64,000 nucleotides of DNA from the NCBI RefSeq assembly GCF_041021895.1, contig NZ_CP157428.1, forward strand, positions 1,116,001 to 1,180,000, in the 5' to 3' direction. Of the stretch, positions 10,692-36,678 are shown piece after piece. The stretch's first letter is position 1. Each line of letters begins with the position of its first letter. The position numbers and the translations under genes are program-made. Source of the DNA: Acinetobacter sp. XH1741. GTDB lineage: Bacteria > Pseudomonadota > Gammaproteobacteria > Pseudomonadales > Moraxellaceae. The notes under the pieces are model-generated. The model was given only the letters and a program-made list of their open reading frames with translations. It did not search any database and had not been told where the DNA came from.

Positions 10692-10814
10692 TCTAGCATT
10701 CAGTTAAATTTAAAAGAATGCTTGTTTATATAATATCTAAAACAATAATTTAATTAATCTAATGAAAAACAATAAGAATTTTAAAATCTTGGCATAAATT
10801 CCACATTGACACTT

Positions 10815-11040: not shown

Positions 11041-11048
11041 TTTGGCAG

Positions 11049-11102: not shown

Positions 11103-11298
11103 TCTTTAACAGGGTTTGATTACTTTTGAGTTTTCAGACTTTAGTTCGTCACGACTAAAAAATCATATCAACAATAAAACTTGAGATGCGTTAGGGCAGT
11201 CTTTGGGGCCTTTGCATGCTTTTTTTGCCTAAAGCAAAAGTTGCAGCTGTTTTATCTCATTTAGACACAATAAGAAATTATTTTATAACGGTACATAT

Positions 11299-11860: not shown

Positions 11861-12047
11861 ATGAGCTTAGGCAACACTATAATTTTATGCATAAGACTCT
11901 TCAAAAGAGTTAGATTTATATACTTAAGGCTGGTATGTAGTGCATATCAGTCTAGTTTTATAAAGCTAAAAAGATGAGATGGGTTTTTGTAATGTGGTGG
12001 AGCGATCATTCAAACTCCACTCACATTTAACCATGGTTTGTTAAAGC

Positions 12048-12072
12048 GGCCTTATAAATTTTAAGCCGCAGC
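12048..12072 (-). terminator. Hairpin overlapping the TetR stop codon
   Basis: GCGGCTT and AAGGCCGC on the minus strand form a stem around the stop codon of the TetR gene, followed by TTTAAC. It may terminate that transcript. The U tract is weak. Confidence 0.35.
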
Positions 12073-12633: not shown

Positions 12634-12963
12634 TGGTTGCCCCGTCATAGATATTTTTTGATTAACTTTGCTATTGTAAAGTATGAAAGCTTAAATAAAA
12701 CTTATTTTATGATATTTAAAAAACTATATTTATTCAATAGGTTGGTTTATTTTAAAAAGTGTAAAAATGTATATATTATTGGCAATAGTTTACTTTTTTA
12801 AATAATATTAATTAATCCATTGATTTGTTGAGATAATAAACATAATATCAATTCGTTAAGTATGGGTATACGGAATTTATCCTTTTAGCGACTGTGTGCG
12901 AAATGGAAATAGAGGGATGACCTTGAACTTAACTATAAGAAAAACTTTTTATTGAGAATGATT
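12634..12963. promoter_or_regulatory. Divergent promoter region between tetR and the haem-oxygenase-fold gene
   Basis: This is 330 bp of very AT-rich sequence between two diverging genes. It should hold both promoters and, if the TetR controls its neighbour, an operator. I found no long perfect palindrome. Confidence 0.4.
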
Positions 12964-21281: not shown

Positions 21282-21647
21282 TGTTATTTTGAGATTAATA
21301 CCAATCAATATTTGTATTGGTTGGTATTAATTGAGTTTTTACATTAGAACTTTTCCTTTTATTTGCTTGAGCTAATCATCATTCACAACCTGCCCGTTAT
21401 AAAAAGATAATAGTTTCTGCGATTCTTTTGATACTCGTGAACAGATGACAGGTTTTGTGAATGAGAAAGTTTTTGCTTACTTTTTTAAAAAAGTAAGAAG
21501 ATTTAGCTGTTAGTACTTGAATTATAATGATAAGACTTGTCGTGAGTTTAAACATCATAGTCTTAAGTTTTCTTTGATCTAAAATACACTTTCGTCTGAA
21601 AAGCAGTAAAATACTCTCCGTGTTTTATATCCCCTCAAAGAGTAGCA
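21282..21647. other. Structured intergenic region after acnA
   Basis: These 366 bp have no gene but hold three inverted repeats: the acnA hairpin (21295-21330), a long-range pair CATTCACAACCTG (21380-21392) with CAGGTTTTGTGAATG (21449-21463), and a perfect 22-bp palindrome at 21476-21497. A TATAAT at 21523-21528 may belong to the tcdA promoter. A small RNA gene is possible, not shown. Confidence 0.4.
21295..21340 (+). terminator. acnA terminator hairpin
   Basis: A 15-bp stem with one wobble pair (TTAATACCAATCAAT against ATTGGTTGGTATTAA, 6-base loop) starts 14 bases after the acnA stop and is followed by TTGAGTTTTT. Confidence 0.7.
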
Positions 21648-22409
21648 ATGACCGATCTCCAACAAGATGAATATGACCGCCGTTTTGCAGGTGTAGCCAA
21701 AATTTATGGTGATTCATCGTTCCAGCACTACGAACAAAGTCATGTGATGGTGATTGGTATTGGTGGGGTTGGTAGTTGGGCTGTAGAAGCTTTAGCACGT
21801 ACAGGTATTGGTGAGATTACATTAGTCGATATGGACGTGGTTGCTGCATCAAATGTAAACCGTCAACTACCTGCAATGACATCAACTCTGGGCTGTGAAA
21901 AAGTTGAGATTATGGCGGAGCGTTGCCGTCAAATTAACCCACGTATTAAAGTTAATATTATTGATGACTTCTTAACACCTGAAAATGTCACGGAGCTTTT
22001 AAACCCTGTACCAGACATTGTTTTGGACTGTATTGATGACGTTAAAGCAAAACTGGCTTTAATGCTTCATTGTCGTTTTAATAAAATTCCTTTGATTGTA
22101 TCGGGCGGAGCAGGTGGTAAACTCGATCCACTTAAAATTCGCGTGGCAGATTTATCAAAAACAGAGCAAGACCCAATGTTAGCGAAGCTACGTAGTCAAC
22201 TTCGCGCTCGCGGCATTTGTAAAAAGCCAAAAGAGAAATTTGGGATTACCTGTATTTATTCGATTGATAATCCATTTTCAAGTGCAGATGTTTGCCCATC
22301 AGCGGGCTTACGCTGTGGTGGCTATGGGTCTGCCGTGGTCGTGACTTCAAGCTTTGCCATGATTGCTGTAGCAGAAGTTTTGAAAAAGCTCGATTTAAAG
22401 AAAGCCTAG
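21648..22409 (+). CDS. tcdA: tRNA threonylcarbamoyladenosine dehydratase
   Basis: This E1-like ATP-dependent enzyme cyclises t6A at position 37 of ANN-decoding tRNAs to ct6A. The 253 residues have the nucleotide motif VIGIGGVGSWAVEALARTG near residue 33, DMDVVAASNVNRQ with the ThiF/MoeB-type Arg, and VCPSAGLRCGGYGSAV near the C-terminus, typical of TcdA (CsdL). The start MTDLQQDEYDRRFAGVAKIYG is conserved in form. A bidirectional terminator follows. Confidence 0.92.
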   Translation: MTDLQQDEYDRRFAGVAKIYGDSSFQHYEQSHVMVIGIGGVGSWAVEALARTGIGEITLVDMDVVAASNVNRQLPAMTSTLGCEKVEIMAERCRQINPRIKVNIIDDFLTPENVTELLNPVPDIVLDCIDDVKAKLALMLHCRFNKIPLIVSGGAGGKLDPLKIRVADLSKTEQDPMLAKLRSQLRARGICKKPKEKFGITCIYSIDNPFSSADVCPSAGLRCGGYGSAVVVTSSFAMIAVAEVLKKLDLKKA

Positions 22410-22420
22410 ATTCAATATTC

Positions 22421-22460
22421 AAAGGCATGCGCTTAGATTAGGGCATGCCTTTTATTTTTT
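22421..22460 (+). terminator. Terminator of tcdA, possibly bidirectional
   Basis: AAAGGCATGC and GCATGCCTTT form a 10-bp stem with a 12-base loop followed by T-rich sequence. The small minus-strand gene ends just to the right, so it may serve both. Confidence 0.8.
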
Positions 22461-22473
22461 GAGAAAAAACAAT

Positions 22474-22596
22474 TTAATCATATAACTCGATAGTGTCATG
22501 TTCGGGCTGCTTTGGAAGCTGCTGATCATAAAATTTAAAACACCATAAAGTTAGAATAACAATGCTGAATAGCGCGAAACCCTTTAGATATTTCAT
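22474..22596 (-). CDS. Small membrane protein of 40 residues
   Basis: The minus strand reads an intact 40-codon frame starting MKYLKGFALFSIVILTLWCF. A basic end is followed by a hydrophobic helix of about 15 residues, then a short polar tail (DQQLPKQPEHDTIELYD). It looks like a single-pass inner-membrane miniprotein with its tail in the periplasm. It fills the gap between tcdA and the LysR gene, converges on tcdA and shares its terminator. No clear Shine-Dalgarno sequence precedes the ATG, which lowers confidence. I do not recognise a family and claim no function. Confidence 0.5.
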   Translation of the reverse strand: MKYLKGFALFSIVILTLWCFKFYDQQLPKQPEHDTIELYD

Positions 22597-22698
22597 GAGT
22601 AATTCAATCAAATAAATAGTCTTGATAAAATTCTAGCCAAGGTTAATTATCTAATCTAATATAGAAAATAGCCTAAATGATCTAATTTTGAGATGGTC

Positions 22699-23592
22699 AT
22701 GCCTACATTAAAGCAATTCCAATATTTCATAAAAATTGTTGAGGAGGGGAGCTTTACTGCTGCTTCGGAAAATTTATTTATTGCCCAGTCTGCTTTAAGT
22801 CGGCAAATGAAACTATTAGAAGAAGAAATAGAGTTTCAGTTATTTGATCGTACTGATAAAAAAGTAAAACTCACCACAGCGGGAGAAGTCTTTTATAAGA
22901 AAATAAAAAATAATCTGCTCTACTTAAATGAAATAATTGATCTTTCTAAAAGTGTTTCTGAAGGAAAAAATCGCCAGATTAAAATTGCTCATTCAAGCAG
23001 TATTGTCATGGACAATAAAAAAGTTCAGATATTAAAAGAAGTCAGTTTAACGCAGCAGATGAGTTTTGAAATTAATACCTTGTCATCAGAGCAGCAAATC
23101 TTAGCGTTAATGAAAGGCGAAATCGATATTGGTCTAATTCGGCCGCCTGTTCTGCATACATTAGATGGTCTTAACATTCTTAAGTTATATGAAGAGCCGT
23201 TAATGTTGGCTGTGCATATTGATCATGTTAAGTTTGCCAAAAATGAAGGTATTTATTTAAAGGATTTAAAAGACCAGTACTTTGTATCAACGCCTTCTCC
23301 TCAGCGAGGCGGCTTAAGTTTTTTGGTCACGAACCTATGTTTGGCTGCAGGATTTATCCTACGAAAAGCCCCGATTCAATCTCGCAAGGTTTCTCAGCTA
23401 CAATTGGTCTCTGCAAATTTAGGAATTAGTATTGTTCCTCAAGAGTACCAAGAAATATTACCAGAACAGGTAAAGCTATTACCTTTGATAGATCATTTAT
23501 CGCTTTCAGAAGTATTACTGGTCTATAGAAAAGATCAGGATGAAGTGATTCAGCACTGCGCTGAGCGAATTCATCAAATGTTTCAATCTTAG
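22699..23592 (+). CDS. LysR-family transcriptional regulator
   Basis: This is a DNA-binding activator or repressor of about 297 residues. The N-terminal winged helix-turn-helix is complete: LKQFQYFIKIVEEGSFTAASENLFIAQSALSRQMKLLEEEIEFQLFDRT. The periplasmic-binding-protein-like ligand domain contains GEIDIGLIRPPV, close in style to the CatM/BenM branch, which answers to aromatic-acid metabolites. Target and ligand are not evident because the neighbours are unrelated. An ATG two codons upstream (22693) also fits. The gene converges on the amidase-like gene with only seven bases between. Confidence 0.88.
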   Translation: MPTLKQFQYFIKIVEEGSFTAASENLFIAQSALSRQMKLLEEEIEFQLFDRTDKKVKLTTAGEVFYKKIKNNLLYLNEIIDLSKSVSEGKNRQIKIAHSSSIVMDNKKVQILKEVSLTQQMSFEINTLSSEQQILALMKGEIDIGLIRPPVLHTLDGLNILKLYEEPLMLAVHIDHVKFAKNEGIYLKDLKDQYFVSTPSPQRGGLSFLVTNLCLAAGFILRKAPIQSRKVSQLQLVSANLGISIVPQEYQEILPEQVKLLPLIDHLSLSEVLLVYRKDQDEVIQHCAERIHQMFQS

Positions 23593-23599
23593 TGTTGAA

Positions 23600-24109
23600 T
23601 TAACCTAATCTATAGTAGGTGTACGTCACATTGTCATCTTTATAGACGTCGTAACTGCTTTGTTTGAAGTCAGAAACCCATTCACTTCCAGTGTAACCTG
23701 CGATATGTCCATAAACATGATTACGAGTTCTGTGAATGATATAAATGTCGCCTTCTTGGGGTTCATCAAAGGCAGGGTTAATTTCTTTGTAGCCAATCTT
23801 TTTGAGTGTATCACCCCAATCAGATGCTGCGATTGGATGGTTTTCAACATCGGCACCAGCAGATTCAAGTGCGAGACGAATGCTACGTGCACAGCGAGCT
23901 TTGCTGCGTCGAGAGGTAATACTTTCTAGTTTGGCTACGAATTTTTCTACATCAATGGCTGGAGGAGTGTTGGGTTCAGTACGGTGACTATTGGGTTTCA
24001 TGGTGAAGGGATAAGGAAGGCCTGGTGTACTGTGTGATACAACAATCGCTGCCTGATTTGAATTCTGATACATATAGTTATCAGCTACTTGTCCGTCATA
24101 AATAATCAT
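23600..24109 (-). CDS. Probable peptidoglycan amidase (CHAP/NlpC-P60-like), possibly 5'-truncated
   Basis: The 169-residue protein has the layout of papain-like cell-wall amidases. The candidate nucleophile Cys is in SKARCARSIRLALESAG near residue 73, EGDIYIIHRTRNHVYGHIAGYTGSEWVSDF near 120-148 holds the catalytic His, and YYRLG ends the chain. This resembles amidase effectors and endolysins that cut peptide stems. There is no signal peptide, no adjacent immunity gene and no secretion gene. Upstream of the ATG the same frame stays open for 21 codons, and a 4-bp ACCT duplication at 24158-24165 separates it from a further coding-like stretch. The gene may therefore be the 3' remnant of a longer effector. 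The start I list has no strong ribosome site. Confidence 0.55.
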   Translation of the reverse strand: MIIYDGQVADNYMYQNSNQAAIVVSHSTPGLPYPFTMKPNSHRTEPNTPPAIDVEKFVAKLESITSRRSKARCARSIRLALESAGADVENHPIAASDWGDTLKKIGYKEINPAFDEPQEGDIYIIHRTRNHVYGHIAGYTGSEWVSDFKQSSYDVYKDDNVTYTYYRLG

Positions 24110-24445
24110 CGTGAAATCTCTACCCGTACTACCTATATCCGTATTTAGAAGATCACCACCTACCTGTGGCGTTCAGAGATACTAATGGCCCAATCTTAAA
24201 AGTTTTGTTTATGTTATGTAATAACGTATCTTTTTTCCAGTTTTTATTCCTGACTGTTAAAAAATAAGCTAACTAAAATAACGTTAAAAAACGATGAAAT
24301 TTAAGTATTTGATAAAACTGAATAAAAATAATTAAACAGAGCTTAAATTTGAATATTTTGAACCAACATTTGCGAATATACTCAAAATCTAAGTCTCTGA
24401 TTTAAAATGCCACATTTTCTTACAATTTAAGAAGGCTAAGCGAGT
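24110..24445. other. Upstream region of the amidase gene with a coding-like remnant
   Basis: These 336 bp carry, on the minus strand, a frame reading TPQVGGDLLNTDIGSTGRDFT directly into the amidase ATG. In the next frame lies KIGPLVSLNATG. The two join into one frame if one unit of the tandem ACCT at 24158-24165 is removed. Beyond about 24290 the sequence is AT-rich with no signal I can name. Confidence 0.45.
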
Positions 24446-25450
24446 TTAGATTTGATGCTCTTTTACATATTCTTCAGTACGAATAAGTGCCGCTTGCATG
24501 TTTCGAATCGCATTCTCGACATCAGCTAAAGTTTTGGCATTTCCACCGCTCAATGCCTGACGCCATTTACGGGCACCCGGTAAATTTTGGAATAAGCCTA
24601 AAATATGACGGGTAATGATAGAAAGCGGCGCGCCCTCAGCCATACGCTGTTCAATATACGGAAGCATTTGCTCCATAATATCGAAACGATCTGGTGCTTC
24701 TAAGTTCCAAAGTTGGCCGAGCTCAGCAAGCAGGTAAGGGTTATGATACGCTTCACGGCCAATCATCACGCCGTCCACGTGCTGTAAATGAGCTTGAGTT
24801 TCGGCAAAAGTTTTAATTCCGCCGTTAATTTCGATGGTGAGATGTGGACGTTCTTGTTTTAAACGGTAGACATCTTCATAACGTAGTGGCGGTACTTCTC
24901 GGTTCTCTTTTGGAGACAGGCCTTTCAATATCGCAATACGCGCATGTACAACGAAATAAGTACAACCAGTTGCAGCAACAGTATCTACGAAATGTAGCAT
25001 TTCTTCGTAGGATTGCATGTCATCAATACCAATACGGTGCTTCACAGTTACGGGAATATTCACTGCCTTTTGCATGCTATGAATACATTCAGCGACCAAG
25101 TCTGGCTCTGCCATTAAACATGCACCGATTTTATTGTTCTGTACGCGGTCACTTGGGCAGCCTACATTAAGGTTAACTTCATCATATCCCCAGTCTTCAG
25201 CCATTTTTGTACAGGTGGCAAGCTCTTGAGGATTTGAACCACCAAGCTGCAAAACGATTGGGTGTTCTTGAGCGTTATAGTCCAAGTGGCGTTTTGCATC
25301 GCCAAATAAAATCGCGCCCGTAGTCACCATTTCTGTATAAAGCACGACGTTTGGGTTAAACAACCGCGCAAAGAATCGGTAATCCTTCGTTGTCCAGTCC
25401 ATCATTGGGGCAACTGAAATACGAGGTTGTAACGATTGAAGTGATTGCAT
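24446..25450 (-). CDS. dusA: tRNA-dihydrouridine(20/20a) synthase
   Basis: This FMN-dependent enzyme reduces U20 and U20a in the D-loop of tRNAs. It is about 334 residues with the Dus signatures SVAPMMDWTTKDYR near residue 13, NLNVGCPSDRVQ with the catalytic Cys near 95, KHRIGIDD near 140, and EINGGIK with MIGREAYHNPYL in the C-terminal half. An in-frame TTG two codons upstream exists; I prefer the ATG at 25448-25450. The 5' end of dusA is a documented integration site for genomic islands in Acinetobacter and other proteobacteria, and here an inserted-looking ter block begins shortly upstream. Confidence 0.95.
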   Translation of the reverse strand: MQSLQSLQPRISVAPMMDWTTKDYRFFARLFNPNVVLYTEMVTTGAILFGDAKRHLDYNAQEHPIVLQLGGSNPQELATCTKMAEDWGYDEVNLNVGCPSDRVQNNKIGACLMAEPDLVAECIHSMQKAVNIPVTVKHRIGIDDMQSYEEMLHFVDTVAATGCTYFVVHARIAILKGLSPKENREVPPLRYEDVYRLKQERPHLTIEINGGIKTFAETQAHLQHVDGVMIGREAYHNPYLLAELGQLWNLEAPDRFDIMEQMLPYIEQRMAEGAPLSIITRHILGLFQNLPGARKWRQALSGGNAKTLADVENAIRNMQAALIRTEEYVKEHQI

Positions 25451-25574
25451 AACCAATAGACCCCAAAGTCGCTAAATTAAAGAAAGGGCAGCATTATACG
25501 GGGTTTAGCCTTGAATCGACAGAGGCATTTAACCGAGTACTTTATGACCGCCCTTGTGTTGAACATATAGAGAT

Positions 25575-25624
25575 GATTTTTAACAAATTACCTTATGAGT
25601 GAACCATTTGCTTTTTTTGTAAGA
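25575..25624. repeat. 50-bp direct repeat, left copy (orphan MFS tail)
   Basis: It matches 32684-32733 at 48 of 50 positions. On the minus strand it still encodes LQKKQMVHS and stop, the end of the MFS transporter (LQKKQMLHS there), but has no gene body. Together the two copies bracket the whole ter block. Confidence 0.9.
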
Positions 25625-26092
25625 GCTTAATGAACGAAGTAATAGTCAGTTAAATTTAAGCCAATAAAATTTTACTGAGGAAAATTTACCTGTAATAAAT
25701 AAAGATAAACCATACTAAAAATATTATCTAAAAAACTAAGTTTTTGAGTGAGCTATATATTATTAAATAAACTAAAGACTTTTAAAGAATACTTATATAT
25801 CAGAGAGTGGCATGAGTTTTGTTCTTTTTTTTATTATTCCTACTCGAAAAAATTAATTATTCATCTAAAAAATGCAAAGTTTGATCAATGTAAGCAGCAT
25901 AAATTTAAGTATTTGTGTAATATAAAGACTGTTATGTCTATTTTCTAATTTAAATTTAAGAATTATATGTTTGGGATCGAGTTACAGCATGGTCTATCAG
26001 GTAAAAAATGATTTATTCGACACAAATTTCGATGATTTATCCTGCTTTTCAGGTTTATGAAGTTGAGTTAAAGCGCATATAAATTATTTTAT

Positions 26093-26121
26093 TTGACACA
26101 GATAAGGCTGTTGTTTTTGCT
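26093..26121 (+). promoter_or_regulatory. Candidate promoter of the ter operon
   Basis: TTGACA at 26093-26098 is a perfect -35 hexamer. Seventeen bases downstream is TTTGCT, a weak -10. The hexamer lies inside the second of two 16-base boxes that match at 14 positions (TTTATTCGACACAAAT and TTTATTTGACACAGAT), spaced 76 bp start to start, which may be regulator sites. Confidence 0.35.
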
Positions 26122-26233
26122 GCTCATAGAAATATGTTCGGAACAGTGACACATGTTTGCTAGGTAGAACGATTTCTGGAGTGATTAAAAGATATTCGGC
26201 GTAAAAATATAAAATTAAGAAGAGGTAAGATCA

Positions 26234-27433
26234 ATGCAACAACTCATTACGGGTGCAAATCTGGTTTTGAGCTGCACGCAATTCCATTTAAAAGTTAAAA
26301 CAATTGTGCCATCGGATATAGAGTTAGATATGACCGCATATCTACTAAACTCTCAAGGGAAGGTTCGTGGTGATGCAGACATGGTTTTTTACGGTCAAAA
26401 GCAAACGCCAAGTAGTAGTGTTGAGTTGATTGAAAGCACAAATAAAGCACCGTATCTAGCTCAATTTAACATTAATACACGGGCACTAGATGTTGATATT
26501 AACAAGATCGCCATGTGTGCTACGGTTGATGGTCACGGTACCCTTAATGCAATTCAAGATATCCAAATTGAATTATGGGAGAGTGGGCAGCATACTGCTA
26601 CAGCAATTGTCCCAAGCGCTGGAAAAACAGAAAAAGCGTTAATTTTAGGTGAAATTTACCGTCATAAAGATCAATGGAAATTCCGTTTTGTGAATCAGGG
26701 TTTTAATGGTGGACTAAAACCTTTATCTGAATATTTTGGGGTTGAAATTAGTGATCAACCTATTGTCCCTGTTTTAGATACCCAACCTAAACCATTACCC
26801 GTCCCTCAACCTAAAATTAATTTAAGTAAAATTACGCTGGATAAACGTAATAGTCAGATTAATTTAAAGAAACAAGACCATGGGTTTGGCGAAATTAAAA
26901 TTAATTTGAATTGGAATCAGCGTTCTCAGCAGGTTCAATCTGGCAGTTTCTTTAAAAAGTTACTTAATCAAAATCAGGGAATTGATTTAGATTTAGGTTG
27001 TTTATTTGAGATGCAGAATGGTCATAAATCAGTTATTCAAGCCTTAGGTAACCAGTTTGGTGATTTTGATAGTTTTCCATTTATTAAACTATCTGCTGAT
27101 GATCGTACGGGAGCATTAAAAGAGGGTGAATGGCTCAGGATTAATGGCAAGCAGTGGCAACAGATTCATCGCGTAGTGCTATTTGCTTTTATTTATGAAG
27201 GCGTACCGAATTGGGCTGAAACAGATGCAGTAGTGACAATTTATGTACCTGATCAACCCCCTATTGAGGTTCGTTTGTCAGAAGGGCAGCCTTTAGGTAT
27301 GTGCGGTATTGTTGAGTTAATAAACAAAGGTGGCAGTATTCAAGTTCAGCGCCATGTGCGTTACGTGCGTGGACATCGGGAGCTAGATCAAGCATTTGGT
27401 TTCGGACTGCGTTGGGTTGCGGGTAGTAAATAA
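26234..27433 (+). CDS. terA: TerA-type tellurite-resistance/stress protein
   Basis: This is a 399-residue protein with an N-terminal TerD-like domain (residues about 1-170: IELDMTAYLLNSQGKVRGDADMVFYGQ, later EIYRHKDQWKFRFVNQGFNGGL). A Pro/Lys linker follows, then a second domain (about 220-399) with IDLDLGCLFEM, SADDRTG and the closing FGLRWVAGSK. This arrangement is that of TerA. TerD folds bind calcium and are thought to act in a cytoplasmic membrane-linked complex that answers to chemical, phage or oxidative stress. AGAGG precedes the ATG. It is the first gene of the block, 100 bp before the next. Confidence 0.85.
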   Translation: MQQLITGANLVLSCTQFHLKVKTIVPSDIELDMTAYLLNSQGKVRGDADMVFYGQKQTPSSSVELIESTNKAPYLAQFNINTRALDVDINKIAMCATVDGHGTLNAIQDIQIELWESGQHTATAIVPSAGKTEKALILGEIYRHKDQWKFRFVNQGFNGGLKPLSEYFGVEISDQPIVPVLDTQPKPLPVPQPKINLSKITLDKRNSQINLKKQDHGFGEIKINLNWNQRSQQVQSGSFFKKLLNQNQGIDLDLGCLFEMQNGHKSVIQALGNQFGDFDSFPFIKLSADDRTGALKEGEWLRINGKQWQQIHRVVLFAFIYEGVPNWAETDAVVTIYVPDQPPIEVRLSEGQPLGMCGIVELINKGGSIQVQRHVRYVRGHRELDQAFGFGLRWVAGSK

Positions 27434-27532
27434 ATTTTATATTTGAGTTAAATATTAGATAAGAACAATTTATCTATTTTTAAATTTTTAGACTATTGAA
27501 TTTAAAACTTTCAAACGAGGAGAAAAAACAAA

Positions 27533-28111
27533 ATGGCAATTAGTTTAAGTAAAGGTGGAAATTTATCCCTAAGTAAAACAGATCCTAATTTAGTTCGAGT
27601 TTTAATTGGATTGGGTTGGGATGAACGTGCAACTGATGGTGCTGGATTTGATTTAGATGCGAGTGCATTCTTACTAACAGCTAGTGGTAAGGTTCGTGGT
27701 GATCATGATTTTATTTTTTATAATCAACTTAAATCACAAGATGGTGCAGTAGAGCATACTGGGGATAATCGTTCTGGACAGGGCGATGGTGATGATGAAA
27801 CTTTAGTGGTAAATCTTTCAAAAGTTGCACCTGAAGTTGAAAAAATAGCAATTACTGTAACGATTCACGATGCGCAAGCAAGAGGTCAAAACTTTGGTCA
27901 GATCGCAAATGCGTTTATCCGAGTGGTAAATCAAGATACAAATGTAGAAGTCGTACGTTTTGACTTGGCTGAAGATTATTCAACAGAAACTGCAATGGTA
28001 TTTGGAGAAGTCTATCGTCATAACGGTGAGTGGAAATTTAAAGCTGTAGGTCAAGGTTACTCTGGTGGACTAGCTGCAATGTGTCAACAATATGGTATTC
28101 AGGTTGGTTAA
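27533..28111 (+). CDS. terD: TerD-family calcium-binding stress protein (first copy)
   Basis: This 192-residue TerD-fold protein has the full set of motifs: [36 protein letters not shown] near residue 25-45, FIFYNQL, the acidic calcium loop [14 protein letters not shown] near 80-93, and [22 protein letters not shown] at the end. It is close to TerD/TerE, and the exact letter cannot be decided from sequence alone. AGGAG lies ahead of the ATG. A second close paralogue sits at 29321, on the other side of the membrane-protein gene. Confidence 0.9.
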
Positions 28112-28170
28112 AATTATCATTTCAATAAATAAATGATGGATACCGTTAAATTTTTTATAAAAGGTAAAAA

Positions 28171-29238
28171 ATGAAACATTTTCGTTTCTCAATTTTTTTT
28201 AGCTTGATCTGTTTGGGATTAGCAGCATGGTGGGGCTTTACCCATGGGCCGAATGCCGGTTTTTCTATGATGCTTAAAGCATTATTGATTACAGGTGTAT
28301 TAGCCGTTATGGAAGTCTCTTTATCTTTCGATAATGCGGTTGTAAATGCTTCAGTATTACGAAACTGGGATGAATTCTGGAAAAAGATTTTTCTTACAGT
28401 AGGTATATTAGTTGCTGTATTTGGTATGCGTTTAATTTTCCCTTTATTAATTGTTGGCGTAACAGCAGACATGGGAATGATTGAAGTTGCTAAGTTAGCA
28501 TTAAATGATCCTAAAGAATATTCTGAGAAGTTATTAGCTCATCAGGCGGAAATTTCAGCTTTCGGCGGCATGTTCTTACTTTTAGTATTTTTGAACTTTT
28601 TATTTGATGATGGCAAAGATACACATTGGTTCCACTGGTTGGAAGCACATCTATCTAATTTAGCCAACATCCCGGCAATGTCGGTATTTGTATCGCTCAT
28701 CGCTCTACTTACCATGTCGGCATTTGTTCCTGTAGAACAGAAGTTAATTGTGATTGTGGCTGGTATTTGGGGCATCGTAGTATATATCGGTGTTCAGGTC
28801 ATAGGGCACTTGCTGGAAAGTAGTGATGACGAATCAAGTGAAGAGCAAGTATCTGGTAAGACAACTAATATTGTAAAAGCAGGTATTGGTGGTTTTCTTT
28901 ATCTTGAGGTTTTAGACGCTTCATTCAGCTTTGATGGTGTTATTGGCGCATTCGCAATTACAAATGATGTTGTCATCATTATGTTGGGCTTAGCAATAGG
29001 TGCAATGTTCGTCCGTTCAATGACTATTTATTTAGTTGAACAAGGCACATTGGAAGCTTTTATATATTTAGAGCATGGTGCACATTACGCCATTGGCGCT
29101 TTAGCGGCAATTATGTTGTACACAGGAACAGGTGGTCACGTTCCTGAGGTTGTTACAGGCTTAATTGGTATCGCATTTATTGCATGGGCTGTACTATCTT
29201 CAATTGCTTACAGTAAAAGTCAAACACAAACTTCATAA
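28171..29238 (+). CDS. DUF475/TerC-like integral membrane protein
   Basis: This 355-residue protein has about nine hydrophobic segments. The motif VMEVSLSFDNAVVNASVL near residue 47 and LEVLDASFSFDGVIGAF near 248 are the paired acidic membrane motifs of the TerC/DUF475 superfamily. The spacing and the region DDGKDTHWFHWLEAHL point to DUF475, not classical TerC. TerC relatives are linked to metal ion export, including Mn, and serve as the membrane anchor of Ter complexes. Here it takes the place TerC has in other ter operons, between two terD genes, so a TerC-like role is the best inference. Confidence 0.8.
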   Translation: MKHFRFSIFFSLICLGLAAWWGFTHGPNAGFSMMLKALLITGVLAVMEVSLSFDNAVVNASVLRNWDEFWKKIFLTVGILVAVFGMRLIFPLLIVGVTADMGMIEVAKLALNDPKEYSEKLLAHQAEISAFGGMFLLLVFLNFLFDDGKDTHWFHWLEAHLSNLANIPAMSVFVSLIALLTMSAFVPVEQKLIVIVAGIWGIVVYIGVQVIGHLLESSDDESSEEQVSGKTTNIVKAGIGGFLYLEVLDASFSFDGVIGAFAITNDVVIIMLGLAIGAMFVRSMTIYLVEQGTLEAFIYLEHGAHYAIGALAAIMLYTGTGGHVPEVVTGLIGIAFIAWAVLSSIAYSKSQTQTS

Positions 29239-29320
29239 AAAATTTGATAGATCATTGATTTAGTGACTATCAGCTTAATGAAATAAACGATAAGTTAAAA
29301 TTTAATAAGGAGTAACTCAC

Positions 29321-29896
29321 ATGGCAATTAGTTTAACTAAAGGCGGTAATGTTAGTTTAACAAAAGAAGCACCTGGTATTACTAAAACAACAGTAGGTTT
29401 AGGTTGGAATCCTCGCGTGACGGATGGAGCTGCTTTTGACCTAGATGCAATTGCATTTTTAATCAATGAAAATGGTAAGGTTCGTGCAGATAATGACTTT
29501 ATTTTCTTTAATAATTTAAAGTCAGCTGATGGCTCCGTAATTCATAATGGCGATAACCGTACAGGTGAAGGCGACGGCGATGACGAAACTTTAAGTGTGG
29601 ACTTAAGTAAGGTCCCTACTGATGTATCAAAAGTAATTTTTGCTGTCACAATTTATGATGGTCAAGCTCGTAATCAAAACTTTGGACAAGTTGCTAATGC
29701 TTACATTCGCGTGAGTAATGATGCGGGTGGCAATGAAATTGCACGTTATGATCTATCTGAAGACAGTAGCACTGAAACGGCAATGATTTTTGGTGAACTT
29801 TATAAACACGGTAGTGAATGGAAATTCCGTGCAATCGGTCAAGGTTTTGCCGGTGGTTTGGGGCCTTTAGCTGCTTCTTATGGTGTTTCTGTCTAA
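29321..29896 (+). CDS. TerD-family calcium-binding stress protein (second copy)
   Basis: This 191-residue protein parallels the first Ter[37 protein letters not shown], the calcium loop [14 protein letters not shown] near residue 80-93, and [23 protein letters not shown]. TerD and TerE proteins usually come in such pairs. AAGGAG precedes the ATG. It is 82 bp after the DUF475 gene and 76 bp before the TerD-VWA gene. Confidence 0.9.
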
Positions 29897-29972
29897 GCTA
29901 TAGAAAGATAGTGCTTAGGCACTATCTTTCAACTCTGTATTTATAAATGATAAAAATAGGTTATTGCTTTAT

Positions 29973-31268
29973 ATGTTAAGTCTAATTCGCGGACAAAAAA
30001 TAAAATTAAATGATATTTTTCAAGGGCAACACTCTTTTTTTATCCAGATTCAATATCAAGCAAATTTTGAGCTAGATATTGCTACTTTTGGGCTTGATCT
30101 AAATTATCGTTTAAGTGATGAACGATATATGACATTTTATAATCAACCTGAAACACCATGTCGGGCTGTACGGTTGCTTGAAAATAATTACCAGTCTATA
30201 CAGTTTAAAATTGATCTTCAGGATCTTCCCGTAAATATTCATCATTTAGTTTTAACTGCTTCAATTGATGGTCAAGCTGTAATGTCGAATTTACAGCAAA
30301 TGACTGTCAAAATAGTGAATTTACAAAATCAACCTATTGCTGCATTTGAATTAAATGGCAATTTATTCGATCAAGAACGTGCCGTAATGTTGCTTGAGAT
30401 TTATCGGAAAGATAATACTTGGCGAATAGCTGCCATTGGCCAAGGTTTTAATGAGGGTTTAGCTACATTGATCCGCCATTTTGGTGGAGAGGTTGCAGAT
30501 GAAGGAGTTGTACAGAAAGATTCTACGGTGCAACAAACAAGGGTTGAACTAAAGAAAAAACTGTCTCTGGAAAAAGCAGAAAAAACGGGTAATGCTTCAA
30601 TTATTGATCTAACTAAAAAATCTTTGGTTCAATTAGAGAAAAAGAATTTGCTTGGTGTGACGGCAAGAGTCGCACTAGTGCTTGATGCTTCTGGATCAAT
30701 GGATTGGCAATATCGCCGTGGTGATGTGCAAAAGGTAGTTAATCGTCTAATGCCATTAGCTATTCATTTTGATGATAATGGAAGCTTCGAATGTTGGGCA
30801 TTCGCTGCTAAAACTATACAGCTAGACGATGTTACTTTAACTAATGTTAATGATTTCATTAATACGACTCAACAAGGCTGGAAAAACTGGTCGGTTGGTG
30901 CACGCTATAACGAAGAAATTCCAGCGATTGAAGCTGTAATTAATTACTTTCGTAAATTTGATGATCAAATTCCAACTTATGTTCTGTTTATTTCCGATGG
31001 TGGAGTGGGAAGCCGTCGACAAATGAAAAAAATATTATCTCAAGCCGCTTCACTTCCAATTTTTTGGCAATTTGTAGGAATTGGTGGTCGTGATTATGGT
31101 GCACTTGAAAAGCTGGATGAAATGTCTGGTCGTATTGTTGATAACTGTAATTTCTTTAATTTAGACCGAATTGATAGTGTTTCGGATGAGCACTTATATG
31201 AATTGTTATTACAAGAATTTCCCGATTGGTTGAATGCTGCTAGGCATCATCAAATTGTTAGAGATTAA
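29973..31268 (+). CDS. terF: TerD-VWA fusion protein (TerF-like)
   Basis: The first 170 residues form a diverged TerD domain (FELDIATFGLDLNYRLSDERYMTFYNQ; EIYRKDNTWRIAAIGQGFNEGL) that has lost most of the acidic calcium loop. After a charged linker the C-terminal 215 residues are a von Willebrand factor A domain with a complete metal site: DASGSMDW near residue 230, a Thr region near 290, and ISDGGVGSRRQ near 340. This order is that of TerF. VWA domains assemble protein complexes through a bound metal. A TTG three codons upstream opens the frame; I use the ATG at 29973. The next gene starts 13 bases after the stop. Confidence 0.82.
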   Translation: MLSLIRGQKIKLNDIFQGQHSFFIQIQYQANFELDIATFGLDLNYRLSDERYMTFYNQPETPCRAVRLLENNYQSIQFKIDLQDLPVNIHHLVLTASIDGQAVMSNLQQMTVKIVNLQNQPIAAFELNGNLFDQERAVMLLEIYRKDNTWRIAAIGQGFNEGLATLIRHFGGEVADEGVVQKDSTVQQTRVELKKKLSLEKAEKTGNASIIDLTKKSLVQLEKKNLLGVTARVALVLDASGSMDWQYRRGDVQKVVNRLMPLAIHFDDNGSFECWAFAAKTIQLDDVTLTNVNDFINTTQQGWKNWSVGARYNEEIPAIEAVINYFRKFDDQIPTYVLFISDGGVGSRRQMKKILSQAASLPIFWQFVGIGGRDYGALEKLDEMSGRIVDNCNFFNLDRIDSVSDEHLYELLLQEFPDWLNAARHHQIVRD

Positions 31269-31281
31269 AAGGGTTAATAAA

Positions 31282-31995
31282 ATGGCACACTTTAGTTTGG
31301 TGGGTTCACCAGAACCATTTTTGCATGTTGCAATGCGCCGTGGAGACCGTATTTATTGTGAAAGTAATGCAATGGTCATGATGGAAGATGCTCTGGAGTT
31401 AAAGGGGCGACTACAGGGCGGTTTAATGCAATCCTTATTACGTCGTTTTGCCAATGATGAATCTTTATTTCAGCAGCATATCGAAGCTGTACGTGGAGAT
31501 GGAGACTGTTTATTGTCTGCTTCACTAGATGGAGATATGCAGATTCTCGATGTTGGTACAACCCAGTACATGTTAAGTGATGGTGCATTTGTTGCCGCAC
31601 ATGATTCAGTAGAAGTCAAAGCACAATTAAATAGCAGTCTTGGTGGTGCTTTCTTTGGAAATACAGGTGGTTTTCTTGTCATGGAAACGAGTGGACATGG
31701 ACAAGTTGTAGTTTCAGGTTGTGGAACCTTGTTTGAGTTAGAGGTAGAGCCCAATAAAGAGGTTGTGATTGATAATGGACATGTAGTCTGCTGGGATTCA
31801 CGGTTAAATTATCATTTATCGGTTTCAACTTCACAAAATAGTGGTTTTCTCGGAAATTTAGTAAATAGCGTAACCAGTGGTGAAGGCATGGTTTTACGTT
31901 TTTCAGGAGCTGGTAAAGTTATCATTTGTTCAAGAAACCGAAATAATTTTTTACAGTGGTTGATGTCTAAGTTAAACCGTCAACAGTCTCATTAA
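31282..31995 (+). CDS. AIM24/TIGR00266-family protein
   Basis: This 237-residue beta-rich protein matches the AIM24 family: an opening with PEPFLHVAMRRGDRIYCESNAMVMM, Gly-rich turns through SLGGAFFGNTGGFLVMETSGHGQVVVSGCG, and the DNGHVVCWDSRLNYHL motif. The yeast namesake acts in mitochondrial inner-membrane organisation. Bacterial members often sit in ter operons, but their role is not known to me. A longer frame starts at 31234 inside terF; GGG nine bases before the ATG at 31282 favours the shorter start. Confidence 0.82.
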   Translation: MAHFSLVGSPEPFLHVAMRRGDRIYCESNAMVMMEDALELKGRLQGGLMQSLLRRFANDESLFQQHIEAVRGDGDCLLSASLDGDMQILDVGTTQYMLSDGAFVAAHDSVEVKAQLNSSLGGAFFGNTGGFLVMETSGHGQVVVSGCGTLFELEVEPNKEVVIDNGHVVCWDSRLNYHLSVSTSQNSGFLGNLVNSVTSGEGMVLRFSGAGKVIICSRNRNNFLQWLMSKLNRQQSH

Positions 31996-32042
31996 AAAAT
32001 AAAAGTAATCATTTTTATAGTCCTCATAGGAAGATCCATAAT

Positions 32043-32621
32043 ATGGCAATTAATTTAGAAAAAGGTCAGAAAATCAATTTGCAAAAAGCAGATGGTAGTA
32101 GCCTTCAACAAGTTTTCTTAGGGGTGGGTTGGGATGTAGTAAAAAGCAAAGGTTTTTTTGGTTTTGGCGGTGGCGGTAATATTGATCTTGATGCTTCTGT
32201 AATTTTATTTGATGAAAATAAAAAAATGCTTGATGTTGTCTACTTTGGCCAACTGCAAAGTAGAGATGGGAGTATTCGCCATTCGGGAGATAATTTAACA
32301 GGAGCGGGAAGTGGGGATGATGAAGTAATTCGTGTCAACCTTAACCAGATTCCAGCACAAGTAAAATCTTTGGTTTTTACTGTTAATAGTTTCCGAGGTC
32401 AGACCTTTGAGAAAGTGGAAAATGCATTTTGCCGATTAGTTGATCAATCAAATAATAATGAAATTGCAAGTTATAAACTTTCTTCGCAAGGCGCTCATAC
32501 TGGTCTAATCATTGCAAAAATTTATCGACATAACGATGCTTGGAAAATGCATGCAATTGGTGAAAATGTACATGGCCGTACTTTTCAAGATATCGTACCT
32601 TTTGTATTACCTCATATTTAA
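32043..32621 (+). CDS. terZ: TerZ-like TerD-family protein
   Basis: This is a 192-residue TerD-fold protein of the TerZ branch: MAINLEKGQKINLQK, then GWDVVKSKGFFGFGGGGNIDLDASVILF. The Gly-rich insert GFFGFGGGG just before the IDLDAS strand is characteristic of TerZ. The calcium loop reads GDNLTGAGSGDDEV. It is the last gene of the block, and a strong hairpin follows. Confidence 0.87.
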   Translation: MAINLEKGQKINLQKADGSSLQQVFLGVGWDVVKSKGFFGFGGGGNIDLDASVILFDENKKMLDVVYFGQLQSRDGSIRHSGDNLTGAGSGDDEVIRVNLNQIPAQVKSLVFTVNSFRGQTFEKVENAFCRLVDQSNNNEIASYKLSSQGAHTGLIIAKIYRHNDAWKMHAIGENVHGRTFQDIVPFVLPHI

Positions 32622-32645
32622 CTAATATAGTGACTAAGTAATAGC

Positions 32646-32670
32646 CCACCATTGTTGAAAGCAATGGTGG
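32646..32670. terminator. Hairpin between terZ and the MFS gene
   Basis: CCACCATTG and CAATGGTGG form a perfect 9-bp stem with a 7-base loop, 24 bases after terZ. The converging MFS gene ends just to the right, so it may stop transcripts from both sides. No adjacent T run. Confidence 0.6.
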
Positions 32671-32683
32671 AGTATAGAAATTT

Positions 32684-32733
32684 GATTTTTAACAAATTAC
32701 CTTATGAGTGAAGCATCTGCTTTTTTTGTAAGA
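32684..32733. repeat. 50-bp direct repeat, right copy (true MFS gene end)
   Basis: This copy contains the last codons and stop of the minus-strand MFS gene plus 18 bases beyond. It matches 25575-25624 at 48 of 50 positions; of the two differences, one is silent and one changes L to V. Confidence 0.9.
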
Positions 32734-33892
32734 AAGCATCAATAACACTAAATAAAATGCAAAATGCAACGAGTCCCACACCTGCTATACATGTCATGGT
32801 CCATCCACCACGATTCCATGCAAAAATTCCTAATGCTGAACCAGCTGCACCACCAATAAAGTAAGTAGTCATATAAATGGCATTAATACGAGATTTGGCA
32901 TCTGGACGTAAACGGAAAATAATACTCTGGTTGCTGGTGTGAACGAGCGCGAGTGCTAATTGAATTAAAGCAAAGCCAATAACATAAGTAGAAATTAGAG
33001 TCTGTCCGAAGTAGAAACAGATCCAGCTTACCAAGAACAGCCCGCAACCCATCCAAGTGAGTAAGCTTGTGTAGCCTTGGTCTGCATATTTGCCAATATA
33101 ACGTGTAGATAAAGCACCAAAAATACCGACTAGAGGGACGAGTCCAATAAATAGATCGGGTAAATGGTGTGCCGAAGTGAGTAGCAGTGCGATAGTGGAA
33201 TACAAAGTACTCACTGCTGCAAAGGCAAAAGCACCCGTAAGCGCTCTTAATAATAGTCGCTTCTCTTGCTTTAAAAGCTGAGCCATGGAGACAAAGATTT
33301 GCCCATAGTTCATTTTCATACGCATGACATAAGGCAAGCGACTTTTTAAAGTAAATGCCAACAGAAGCATTAATACGCCACTGACTATATATACGACTTT
33401 CCAGTGAAATAAGTTTGAGAACAAACCAGCCAGACTGGTAGAGAGTAAAATCCCGACCAATAAGCCACTCATTAAAAAGCCAATAATCTCGCCAGTTTTT
33501 TCAGGTTTGACTGTCATCGTTGCAAGTGGAATAAGCACTTGAGCTGCAACAGAAAACAAGCCCGCTAAAATTGTGCCGATCCAGAGCATAGGTAAGTTAA
33601 CTGAAAATGCAGATGTAAATAGACCAACTGCGCAAAGCACCATCAAAAACGGAATAGCCTTGGCTTTATTGACGATATCGCCCATCGGTACAATAAAAAG
33701 TAAACCGAGGGCATAAGACACTTGAGCAAATGTTACTGTTAAAGCAGCTTGTGCTTGAGTTACAGCAAACTCTTGCTGAATAGAGTGAATTAGAGGCTGA
33801 CAATAATAATTCACACCTGCACACAAGCCACATGCTGCTGCCATCAACCAAAGCAAAGGTTTATTTTGACTGATATCTTCAGGGGTAGACAT
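32702..33892 (-). CDS. MFS transporter
   Basis: This is a 396-residue inner-membrane protein with twelve hydrophobic segments and the MFS loop motif GDIVNKAKAIPF between segments 2 and 3. The N-terminus and the GVNYYCQPLIHSI start resemble the YajR/AraJ-like drug and metabolite exporters. The substrate cannot be named. It is probably transcribed with the RidA-family gene just upstream (18 bp) and the EamA gene. Its last 32 bp are duplicated on the far side of the ter block. Confidence 0.88.
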   Translation of the reverse strand: MSTPEDISQNKPLLWLMAAACGLCAGVNYYCQPLIHSIQQEFAVTQAQAALTVTFAQVSYALGLLFIVPMGDIVNKAKAIPFLMVLCAVGLFTSAFSVNLPMLWIGTILAGLFSVAAQVLIPLATMTVKPEKTGEIIGFLMSGLLVGILLSTSLAGLFSNLFHWKVVYIVSGVLMLLLAFTLKSRLPYVMRMKMNYGQIFVSMAQLLKQEKRLLLRALTGAFAFAAVSTLYSTIALLLTSAHHLPDLFIGLVPLVGIFGALSTRYIGKYADQGYTSLLTWMGCGLFLVSWICFYFGQTLISTYVIGFALIQLALALVHTSNQSIIFRLRPDAKSRINAIYMTTYFIGGAAGSALGIFAWNRGGWTMTCIAGVGLVAFCILFSVIDAFLQKKQMLHS

Positions 33893-33910
33893 GATGTTCT
33901 CTCAGTTTTA

Positions 33911-34318
33911 TTAAGTGTATGCCGTTGCTTCAACTTCAATGAGCATGCGTTCTAATGCAAGGCGTGGCACGGGAATGAGTGTGCAGGCTGGAAAAGGATG
34001 ATTTTTCCATAGATTTTGCATGATTTTAATCAAAATTTGATGTTTTTCATCCGAATGATCAACAATTAAAACCCTTAAAACAGCGATATCTGTGATTTCT
34101 GCATCTGCTGCTGTTAAGGCATGTTGGATGTTATCAAAAACATGGATGGCTTGTTCTTGAAAATCTGAACTTAATTCACCTTTTGCATCTTCACCTCCTT
34201 GACCCGCAACATGAATAATATTTTTAAAATTTTGGACTATAGCAACATGGCTATAAGCATTTGGAGTGGGGTTGTATAAAGTCGATGGGTTTATAATTTT
34301 AAAAGCTTCTTTTTTCAT
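33911..34318 (-). CDS. RidA-family (YjgF/UK114) protein
   Basis: RidA-type proteins hydrolyse reactive enamine or imine intermediates in the cytosol. The protein is about 135 residues with the family layout: NPSTLYNPTPNAYSHVAIV, VAGQGGEDAKGEL, and the closing PACTLIPVPRLALERMLIEVEATAY. The Arg before LALERMLIEVEA corresponds to the carboxylate-binding Arg of active members (R in PVPRLA), so activity is plausible. The ATG at 34316-34318 starts MKKEAFKIINPS; a frame 15 codons longer lacks support. It lies between the MFS and EamA genes on the same strand. Confidence 0.85.
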   Translation of the reverse strand: MKKEAFKIINPSTLYNPTPNAYSHVAIVQNFKNIIHVAGQGGEDAKGELSSDFQEQAIHVFDNIQHALTAADAEITDIAVLRVLIVDHSDEKHQILIKIMQNLWKNHPFPACTLIPVPRLALERMLIEVEATAYT

Positions 34319-34385
34319 GGATCTCAGCCGTTTATTGAAAGTTAGGTGAGTATCCAACCTCAACTTAAGTTGAGGTCAAGCAGAT

Positions 34386-35312
34386 TTAATGTTTTAGTCG
34401 TTTTTTTCTGAGGGTAATCATCATTACGCCTACTATATTAAGAAGGCAGCCAATCCATTGCCACATATTTAAATGCTCATTTAAAAAAGCAACAGCAAGC
34501 AAAATCGTTAAAACTGGTCCAATTGAAGCAATCATTGCAGATTGAGATGCACCGAGACGTTCAATACTTTGCATGAGCATAACTGTGGGTAAGACGGTAA
34601 CTAAAAAGCCTAAGCCAATGCCATACCAAATAACGCTAGAGGGAAGTTGTAATAACAGTTGAACTGGGTGAGGGGTACTCAATGTGTAGTGCGTTAATGT
34701 TCCGATACAAGCTATAGTTAATGCTAAACCTGTGAAATTCCAAGAACCAAATTTTTTAATGAGTGAAGGAGTTAGGAGTAAATATCCTGCAAAAGCCACT
34801 GCACTTGCAAATACGAAACTTGTACCTAACCAGAAGTTGCCCTGAATTGGTGCGTTGTTGTGCTCTTGGAGCATCACTAGTACGGTTCCACCATAACTAA
34901 GAAAAATGGCAAACCAACTTTTTACATCTAATTTTTGTTTGTAGAGTAGACTCGAAGCGATCACGGTGAGTGTGGGATATAAAAAAAGAATAATTCGCTC
35001 TAAAGAAGCACTAATAAACATAAGACCCGTGAAATCGAGCCAGCTGGCGAAGTAGTAGCCTAATAGACCGGCAAAAATTAAAATTAGCCAATCCTTCTTT
35101 TTTATGCCCTGATTATGATGCCTATTGAACCAGCAAATTAATAGAAAGAACGGTAAAGCGCTTAACATACGTAAAGCCATCAGGACTGTACCGTCTACTA
35201 ATGGAGAAAGGGCATAAGTCTGTTTAATAAAGATTGCTTTTGTGCTGAATAGAAAAGCAGAGCAAAGAGCAAAAAAAGACCCAATTTGAAACGATGATAA
35301 AGAAATTTTCAT
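34386..35312 (-). CDS. EamA-family (DMT) transporter
   Basis: This 308-residue protein has ten hydrophobic segments arranged as two EamA repeats, each near 140 residues. Features are the opening ALCSAFLFSTKAIFIKQTYALSP, SLERIILFLYPTLTVIASSLLY in repeat 1, and SIGPVLTILLAVAFLNEHLN in repeat 2. Such proteins export amino acids or other metabolites, and the substrate is unknown here. It seems to be the first gene of the EamA-RidA-MFS transcript (67 bp to the RidA gene). Confidence 0.87.
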   Translation of the reverse strand: MKISLSSFQIGSFFALCSAFLFSTKAIFIKQTYALSPLVDGTVLMALRMLSALPFFLLICWFNRHHNQGIKKKDWLILIFAGLLGYYFASWLDFTGLMFISASLERIILFLYPTLTVIASSLLYKQKLDVKSWFAIFLSYGGTVLVMLQEHNNAPIQGNFWLGTSFVFASAVAFAGYLLLTPSLIKKFGSWNFTGLALTIACIGTLTHYTLSTPHPVQLLLQLPSSVIWYGIGLGFLVTVLPTVMLMQSIERLGASQSAMIASIGPVLTILLAVAFLNEHLNMWQWIGCLLNIVGVMMITLRKKRLKH

Positions 35313-35550
35313 ATACAGGACTGTATAAGAGAGACTGTTGTCTGTAGAAAAAGAAAAATCCTCCTATGTTACACCCCTATTTTAATAACGTGAATCATCA
35401 GTTCAAAATATGGGTATTTATTAAATAAATATTGGGTGGTATTTTCAAAAAGTTCAATTAGAATCCAAATTCTGTACAAAGAATACACATGGGGGAAACA
35501 TTGCAGGTTGCAATGTTTTTGACAATGAGAAATTAGCTTGAGGAACGCTC

Positions 35551-36678
35551 ATGCAGATCGGAATCCCAACCGAAACTGTCGTCGGTGAAAATCGTGTAGC
35601 TGCTACGCCAGAGACAGTAAAGAAGTTGATTAGCGCTGGTCATAGCGTTGTGATTGAACGTGGTGCTGGTGTAAAGGCTGCGTACATTGATAGTGCTTAT
35701 GAACAGGTCGGTGCAACCATTACGGATGATGCCTATACGGGTAGTCAAATTATTTTGAAAGTTCGTGCGCCACAAGGCGAGGAAATTCAAAAACTTGCAG
35801 CAAATACAGCTGTTGTAGCAATGTTTGATCCTTATCGTAACACCGAGCTAGATCAATTTGCGACTCAGCAAGTATCTGCTTTTGCTCTAGAACTGCTTCC
35901 TCGTACGCTTTCTCGTGCACAAAACATGGATGTGTTGTCTTCTCAAGCAAACTTAGCTGGTTATAAATCAGTTTTGCTTGCTGCTGCTGAATATCAACGC
36001 ATGTTCCCAATGCTGATGACTGCTGCGGGTACTGTAAAGCCTGCACGTGTTGTGATCATGGGTGTTGGGGTTGCGGGTCTTCAGGCGATTGCTACCGCAA
36101 AACGTTTGGGTGCAGTGGTTGAAGCGACTGATTTACGTCCTACAGCAAAAGATCAAGTTGAGTCTTTAGGTGGCAAGTGGTTAGACGTGCCAATGTCTGA
36201 AGAAGAGCAACAACGTGCAGCAGATGCAGCAAAAAATGGTTATGGCTGGATGCCGGGTGAGCAATACATTAAAGACCAAGCTGCGATTGTTGATAAGGCT
36301 GTTTCTAATGCAGACATCGTGATTACAACAGCATTGTTACCGGGTCGTGATGCACCACGTCTGATTAAAGCTGAAACTGTTGCCAAAATGAAGCCGGGCT
36401 CTGTCATTTTAGATATGGCGGTTGAAACGGGTGGTAACGTTGAAGGCTCTAAAGTGGGCGAGACTGTGTTTACAGAAAATGGCGTGAAAATTTTGGGTGT
36501 TCCAAATATTCCGGCCACTGTAGCAACAGAAGCTTCTGCATTATATGCGCGTAACGTTTTTAATTTCGTAGAGACTTTATTCGACAAAGAGAAAAACTTT
36601 GTGATTAATCAGGAAGACGAAATCCAAAAAGCCCTATTGGTCACTCATGGCGGTCAAGTACTGCTTAAGCGTGGTTAA
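35551..36678 (+). CDS. pntAA: NAD(P) transhydrogenase alpha subunit, NAD-binding part
   Basis: This is the cytoplasmic domain I of the proton-translocating transhydrogenase, which uses the proton gradient to make NADPH from NADH. The 375 residues hold [20 protein letters not shown], the RQD-loop equivalent, and the NAD motif [27 protein letters not shown] near residue 166. Unlike E. coli PntA, the membrane part is a separate gene (next), the split form seen in Acinetobacter, Rhodospirillum and others. AGGAA precedes the ATG. Order and spacing (11 and 12 bp) indicate one operon with pntAB and pntB. Confidence 0.95.

Follow-up and report, generated by a model that had tools for sequence, protein, structure and literature searches.

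A seven-gene Ter block between dusA and an MFS transporter gene in Acinetobacter, its 50-bp flanking duplication, its parent operon and its possible route of entry

Bacterial hotspots often contain gene blocks that carry no recombinase, and how such blocks entered can seldom be read. One known hotspot for genomic islands is the 5' end of dusA (PMC4482086, PMC6070778 and PMC7392541, in the sections dealing with it), and in Acinetobacter baumannii NCIMB8209 a 19.1-kb arsenic and heavy-metal island lies between dusA and an MFS transporter gene, tellurite not being mentioned in the relevant part of that account (PMC7392541). In Escherichia coli conjugation, polymerase chain reaction (PCR) pointed to partial duplication of the target in 56 of 60 clones (109–950 bp; 14 were sequenced), which the passages concerned explain by a single crossover of recircularised molecules, and Acinetobacter baylyi is counted there among the species with homology-facilitated illegitimate recombination (PMC3240628). 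Here we report on a block of seven Ter genes located between dusA and an MFS gene of Acinetobacter sp. XH1741 and bracketed by two copies of the MFS gene end. It lies in a 64-kb stretch of DNA (NZ_CP157428.1, positions 1,116,001 to 1,180,000), referred to below as the window, whose own numbering is used throughout. The block is not described in the pertinent sections of PMC4482086, PMC6070778, PMC7392541, PMC3240628, PMC6971185, PMC5822837 or PMC7192602, and is a new case of a known kind, namely ordinary gene transfer with an unusually readable scar.

Positions 25575–25624 and 32684–32733 form a direct repeat, in the same orientation and identical at 48 of 50 bases, as the original prediction, made from the letters of the window, had described. 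The right copy (32684..32733, minus strand) is the genuine 3' end of an intact MFS transporter gene (32702..33892, minus strand), which terminates in LQKKQMLHS and a stop, plus 18 bp. The left copy (25575..25624, minus strand) reads LQKKQMVHS and a stop in the same frame; it is an orphan MFS tail, consisting of the last residues, the stop and 18 bp, and runs on into the native upstream spacer of dusA (25457–25574, delimited by comparison with related loci). The dusA gene itself (24446..25456, minus strand) is intact, with its 5' end towards the block. The predicted roles of the two copies, as well as the leucine-to-valine and silent differences between them, were therefore borne out by the reading frame. 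A further suggestion, that the tails come from different strains, was not established: they are 48/50 alike, and the tail of A. nosocomialis (locus L003) is 47/50 to each of them.

The 29-base core of the repeat has two copies in its own genome when up to three mismatches are allowed, both inside the window. As a control, the best 40-mer match to the MFS tail was determined in up to 10 kb downstream in each of 45 related loci (2.7 kb in the case of L042). It reached 38/40 in the window against 22–26/40 in 44 of the 45 loci, so the repeat is not a product of chance; L042 stood apart at 34/40. The similarity does not continue into the MFS gene (score 5.0 vs a shuffle mean of 5.3). A repeat of 61 bp instead of 50 bp, to which a blastn alignment against A. 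baumannii would extend, was discarded as unsupported, given that 191 of 1000 shuffles reach the same score.

The 45 related loci had been retrieved with the MFS protein as query, and ten of them (L003–L012) are close relatives. All ten have a single MFS tail. In six, dusA lies ~ 140 bp from the MFS end; in the other four, the MFS end, spacer and dusA 5' start are collinear and dusA is interrupted just past its start, as it is by dusA islands. Three more distant loci (L027, L032 and L033) likewise have dusA directly behind the MFS gene. One tail within 25 kb was found in each of four A. baumannii records which served as strain controls (NZ_CP077849.1, NZ_CP064203.1, CP035931.1 and NZ_CP104448.1); these are PLSDB ‘plasmids’ of 1.0–4.1 Mb that bear the dusA-MFS chromosomal region. 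Additionally, a search of 175 genus genomes matched the tail region once each in at least 15 others (a lower bound, the search having missed genome G016, which has a tail), and none of these 15 is among the 35 genomes that carry the AIM24 gene of the block. These single-copy sites across relatives support an insertion well. Alignment of these loci shows the Ter segment to lie between the MFS gene and dusA where relatives have an empty site, and the empty-site comparison that the original prediction had called for thus went its way. The window flanks share 87.6–90.9% DNA identity with the four A. baumannii records and about 90–91% with A. nosocomialis and A. seifertii loci, and the host is thus a species of the A. 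calcoaceticus-baumannii (ACB) complex, though probably not A. baumannii itself.

The one finding in favour of the orphan being a leftover of an ancient tandem MFS gene pair, an origin which the prediction had itself named as fatal to its reading, is that it encodes the MFS end in frame. Similarity that ends at 50 bp, one MFS match in each of the 45 loci and the single tails of the close relatives speak against such a pair; it was rejected on the first two of these grounds, and we regard it as exceedingly improbable.

The block proved to be part of something larger. Its AIM24 gene is present in 35 of the 175 Acinetobacter genomes, that of the window included, and 15–20 kb around all 34 other loci were compared. 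Its nearest relatives are found in 11 other Acinetobacter genomes, which have the same seven genes in the same order at 75–79% nucleotide identity; in these, the seven genes make up the 3' part of a co-directional operon at another locus. Ahead of them stand genes for an ATP-grasp protein (Pfam ATPgrasp_Ter in L078), a PRTase_2/TRSP protein, a HAD-type hydrolase, a StiP-PELOTA protein and a C-C bond lyase. The ATP-grasp gene is cut by the edge of the compared stretch in several of the 11, and in G133 and G152 a DNA match revealed only the gene end. Convergent thioesterase and ADH genes follow the operon in all 11, and murB in ten, the eleventh stretch stopping earlier. The G074 locus runs further, to VWA/TerY-type proteins, a TerD protein, PP2C and a kinase beside dnaX; in A. 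baylyi ADP1, terX and terY (ACIAD1968 and ACIAD1969) adjoin dnaX (ACIAD1970), as the relevant part of PMC6971185 has it.

Two remnants of these biosynthetic genes precede the Ter genes of the window, both on the plus strand. The first (25855..25992), comprising the last ATP-grasp codons and the beginning of the PRTase gene, is 80.7% identical to L078 1019–1158, and its end overlaps the second at the deletion junction. The second (25979..26209), the 3' end of the (HpcH/HpaI-like) lyase gene, matches L078 from 4877 onward and is alignable only with gaps. About 3.7 kb of biosynthetic genes are thereby gone, and the ATP-grasp tail is now fused to the lyase tail. Both break points lie in similar short stretches, so that this loss reads most simply as a deletion between imperfect direct repeats. 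Comparison with L078 and its relatives shows that the block derives by deletion from a larger co-directional Ter operon, of which it is the core half. The description of the block as a Ter module with an AT-rich flank consequently held for its seven genes; positions 25855–26209 of that flank are a remnant of deleted biosynthetic genes, and the module is not complete, its derivation by deletion from a larger operon having been overlooked.

Of the biosynthetic module (ATP-grasp, PRTase, HAD, StiP/PELOTA and lyase), the window holds only the two remnants, and a StiP query that matches 29 of the 175 genus genomes found nothing in the window's own genome. Six of the 35 AIM24 carriers gave no StiP match (G000, G012, G092, G119, G124 and G145), which bears on whether the Ter core and the metabolite pathway are separable. 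Two core Ter loci, L116 (G119) and L118 (G145), have no biosynthetic genes in 20 kb; the locus screen detected no TerC in the former and no TerF-type gene in the latter.

All seven Ter genes are intact, on the plus strand, and each has a Pfam match to TerD, TerC/DUF475 or AIM24; the names TerA, TerE and TerF are labels that we assigned from gene order and domains. From open reading frames (ORFs) and Pfam they encode a TerA-like protein with a TerD domain (26234..27433, 399 aa), a TerD-domain protein (27533..28111, 192 aa), a TerC/DUF475 membrane protein (28171..29238, 355 aa), a TerD-domain protein that is TerE-like by position (29321..29896, 191 aa), a TerF-like protein with TerD and vWA domains (29976..31268, 430 aa; ATG start chosen, with a TTG upstream at 29964), an AIM24-domain protein (31282..31995, 237 aa; ATG start chosen, with another ATG upstream at 31234) and a final TerD-domain protein (32043..32621, 192 aa). 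Several TerD-domain proteins (PF02342 in five of the seven) thus accompany one TerC (PF03741/PF04332), as expected of a Ter core. TerB, which belongs to terZABCDE according to the relevant passage of PMC5822837, had no match among the seven proteins, and the intervals between their genes contain no additional sense ORF of 80 aa; the G074 operon is likewise without an extra gene at that place. A hairpin is predicted behind the last gene (32646..32670, plus strand; fold z = −4.0 for 32622–32700), where relatives have inverted repeats on visual reading. Rfam gave no match in the two loci scanned, L132 and L098, and a test for promoter-like sites at the native promoter was uninformative (5 vs 4.5 expected).

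The dN/dS ratios (non-synonymous over synonymous substitution rates) of the seven genes against two relatives were 0.015–0.087, values of which the direction alone is meaningful with dS near saturation; on these comparisons, the seven genes are under purifying selection. Third-codon-position GC content was 0.17–0.31 in the Ter genes of the window, below the 0.36–0.39 of dusA, the MFS gene and acnA. Between G074 and G007, which carry Ter at the same site, the proportion of non-synonymous differences (pN) was 0.013–0.032 in four Ter proteins vs 0.110–0.221 in four core genes. The pair G074 and G008 tends the opposite way (0.037–0.096 in five core genes, 0.054–0.153 in Ter), with ranges that overlap owing to AIM24. 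Since Ter and core genes disagree between species, Ter loci appear to move among species. In all four genes compared, Ter of the window was closer to G074 and G007 than to G008.

How the block arrived is a question on which one of the 45 related loci throws light. L042 (G059) was deposited as A. baumannii ACIN00150, and its MFS protein is just 66% identical to that of the window. In it (10001–13633), the MFS gene is followed by two small genes, an orphan MFS tail and a gene related to the one directly behind MFS in L036 and L043; the small-gene stretch of 1.6 kb is shared with A. guillouiae L040. The orphan is 120 bp long (12812–12931) and ends at the stop. The last 27 nt of the true gene are identical to those of L040 (27/27), compared with 17/27 for the orphan, and over the preceding 93 nt the orphan agrees with its own gene at 87/93 and the own gene with L040 at 72/93. 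The orphan tail of L042 is a second, independent one, and the pattern looks like an exchange begun in the MFS end that left the recipient tail stranded. Repeat lengths and ends differ between the window and L042, which argues against one fixed attachment (att) site.

Because this second, independent orphan tail occurs in L042, we favour recombination without an integrase, and give roughly even chances to the Ter block having entered in this way at the MFS 3' end from a non-ACB lineage. The donor DNA would have come from a non-ACB Acinetobacter lineage with Ter of the murB-locus type and would have entered through a single homologous exchange within the 3' end of the MFS gene. The incoming DNA would have been either a recircularised fragment, integrated by single crossover, or a segment whose other end was joined illegitimately, and the recipient's own MFS tail would have been left behind as the orphan. 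Of what single-crossover or homology-facilitated illegitimate recombination should leave, the target duplication is seen, no donor tract was identified and the parallel with L042 is imperfect. The idea in the original prediction of a recombination with a sister MFS tail is to that extent the favoured one, by virtue of L042 and its recognisable donor type, and no donor for the window was found.

Several observations weigh against this route. Deletions are given as the usual product of homology-facilitated illegitimate recombination in the part of PMC3240628 concerned with it, and no donor with window-type Ter adjoining this MFS tail turned up. Of 12 compared, the MFS stretch that immediately precedes the repeat diverges most (0.800, the others 0.820–0.859), which in itself hints only weakly at an imported end. 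In L042, what we read as an IS3-like transposase remnant separates the cargo from the orphan, and the orphan resembles the recipient over its first 93 nt, which a simple single crossover with a donor tail would not yield. The left end of the block contains 230 bp (25625..25854, 22.6% GC) for which this route does not account, and which have only scraps of 29–57 bp and no convincing match in the 175 genus genomes, and none in plasmids. Finally, Ter reached the same interval on a dusA island in G016, and integrase-borne Ter is thus present in the genus.

Some of the same facts suit a degraded integrative island, in which the MFS 3' end served a tyrosine recombinase as attB, the two copies are attL and attR, and the integrase and vector genes were later deleted. 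Att-like direct repeats and an empty site in relatives, the signs by which an island is recognised, are both present: the 50-bp repeats lie at a gene 3' end and restore the reading frame, a deletion inside the block is documented, 230 bp at one end are unassigned, and the G016 Ter locus at dusA is accompanied by apparent integrase debris (our reading of two ORFs). On the other hand, we saw no recombinase gene between the repeats, where besides the seven genes there are only two antisense ORFs (105 and 94 aa, overlapping Ter genes and unscanned), and no ORF of at least 80 aa resembling an intact or broken integrase, or a transposase such as the insertion sequences (IS) at the ends of a composite transposon would bring; nor is there a tRNA in the 64-kb window, all in keeping with what had been predicted. 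Among the 45 MFS loci, the duplicated tail recurs in L042 alone, with different limits. In phages and plasmids, the 50 bp match nothing but MFS gene copies, apart from a 31-base match at chance level (E 0.3), and two exact patterns searched in viral contigs gave 0 matches each. We consider such an island possible but rather doubtful. The first proposal, an island restoring the gene end into which it inserted, was not shown, no integrase having been found, nor any other element at the exact site.

Carriers were also sought. A plasmid was rejected after the block drew no megablast match from plasmids, and a phage after nine records matched 5–15% of the block, at the first TerD gene in one case and within the TerC region in the other eight. 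TerA in a tblastn search of plasmids hit 2696 records, all below 60% identity. A segment joined into a staggered double-strand break, with filled-in ends giving the 50-bp duplication without homology, could account for a clean duplication without a recombinase; the overhang of 50 bases would be long, and we hold this to be improbable.

Ter occupies the dusA-MFS interval in three of the 35 loci (those of the window, G016 and G100), which represent two Ter lineages; the other 32 have neither gene within 15–20 kb, save for one distant dus-like match of 25%. G016 (L126 1551–17002) has a divergent Ter locus with biosynthetic genes behind a dusA 5' remnant near MFS, together with a different dusA start and the two ORFs read as integrase debris. 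In G100 (L148/L154), the dusA start is unlike the one in the window, and the threshold used revealed no second dusA 5' copy; the Ter core there gave no TerC match, the other six genes being found. The hotspot at dusA, Ter inside the dusA start of G016 and Ter between dusA and MFS in G100 might suggest that the block of the window is likewise cargo of a dusA-associated island. However, dusA and its native spacer are intact in the window, the dusA 5' motif occurring once in 20001–36000, within dusA itself and with no second copy found. G016 and G100 moreover carry the divergent Ter type (AIM24 61–62% identical), the window the co-directional one, so the event in the window was a separate one. 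Junction positions and Ter lineage led us to reject a dusA-island origin, to which we would assign only a very small probability. Varied cargo occupies the MFS-dusA interval of other species in L024, L025, L029 and L034; that of L029 encodes a 1205-aa hybrid sensor kinase with solute-binding domains and a LuxR-type regulator, and the other three have ORF pairs of the same size.

More tentatively, the MFS 3' end may be an integrase-free landing site at which DNA with a sister tail recombines one-sidedly and strands the recipient tail, a generalisation that we think unlikely on balance. If true, a route known so far from laboratory crosses would have operated independently twice in nature, leaving an orphan of 50 bp in the window and one of 120 bp in L042. 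Here the order of events is open to test, since the block retains a comparison with empty sites, a duplicated target and the scar of an internal deletion. A Ter core kept under selection without its biosynthetic enzymes also bears on the separability of core and metabolite pathway. The idea of such a pathway is said to come from Anantharaman, Iyer and Aravind in 2012, and the seven retained proteins may constitute the membrane-associated core of a Ter stress response, selected without the enzymes of the proposed pathway.

Of the systems with which the block can be compared, the co-directional Ter locus beside thioesterase-ADH(-murB) in 11 genomes is the closest, sharing the seven genes, their order and (on visual reading) inverted repeats after the last gene. 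It differs in position and in having biosynthetic genes ahead, and in G074 also VWA/TerY, TerD, PP2C and kinase genes by dnaX, which the window is without. The plasmid-type ter operon, for example that of A. venetianus CP060163, shares TerD-domain proteins, TerC, a VWA protein and biosynthetic partner genes with these loci, but has TerB, TerW and divergent biosynthetic genes, and its TerA is 46% identical. The dusA-associated islands described in the relevant sections of PMC4482086 occupy the same chromosomal neighbourhood, with G016 showing Ter as such cargo; as characterised there and in PMC6070778, they insert within the dusA 5' end, whereas the insertion in the window adjoins the MFS stop and leaves dusA untouched. 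The single crossover of recircularised molecules, as treated in PMC3240628, concerns laboratory conjugation in E. coli and duplications of 109–950 bp, while that of the window is natural, 50 bp long and ascribed to its route by comparison; in both, foreign DNA is flanked by a partial duplication of one recipient locus.

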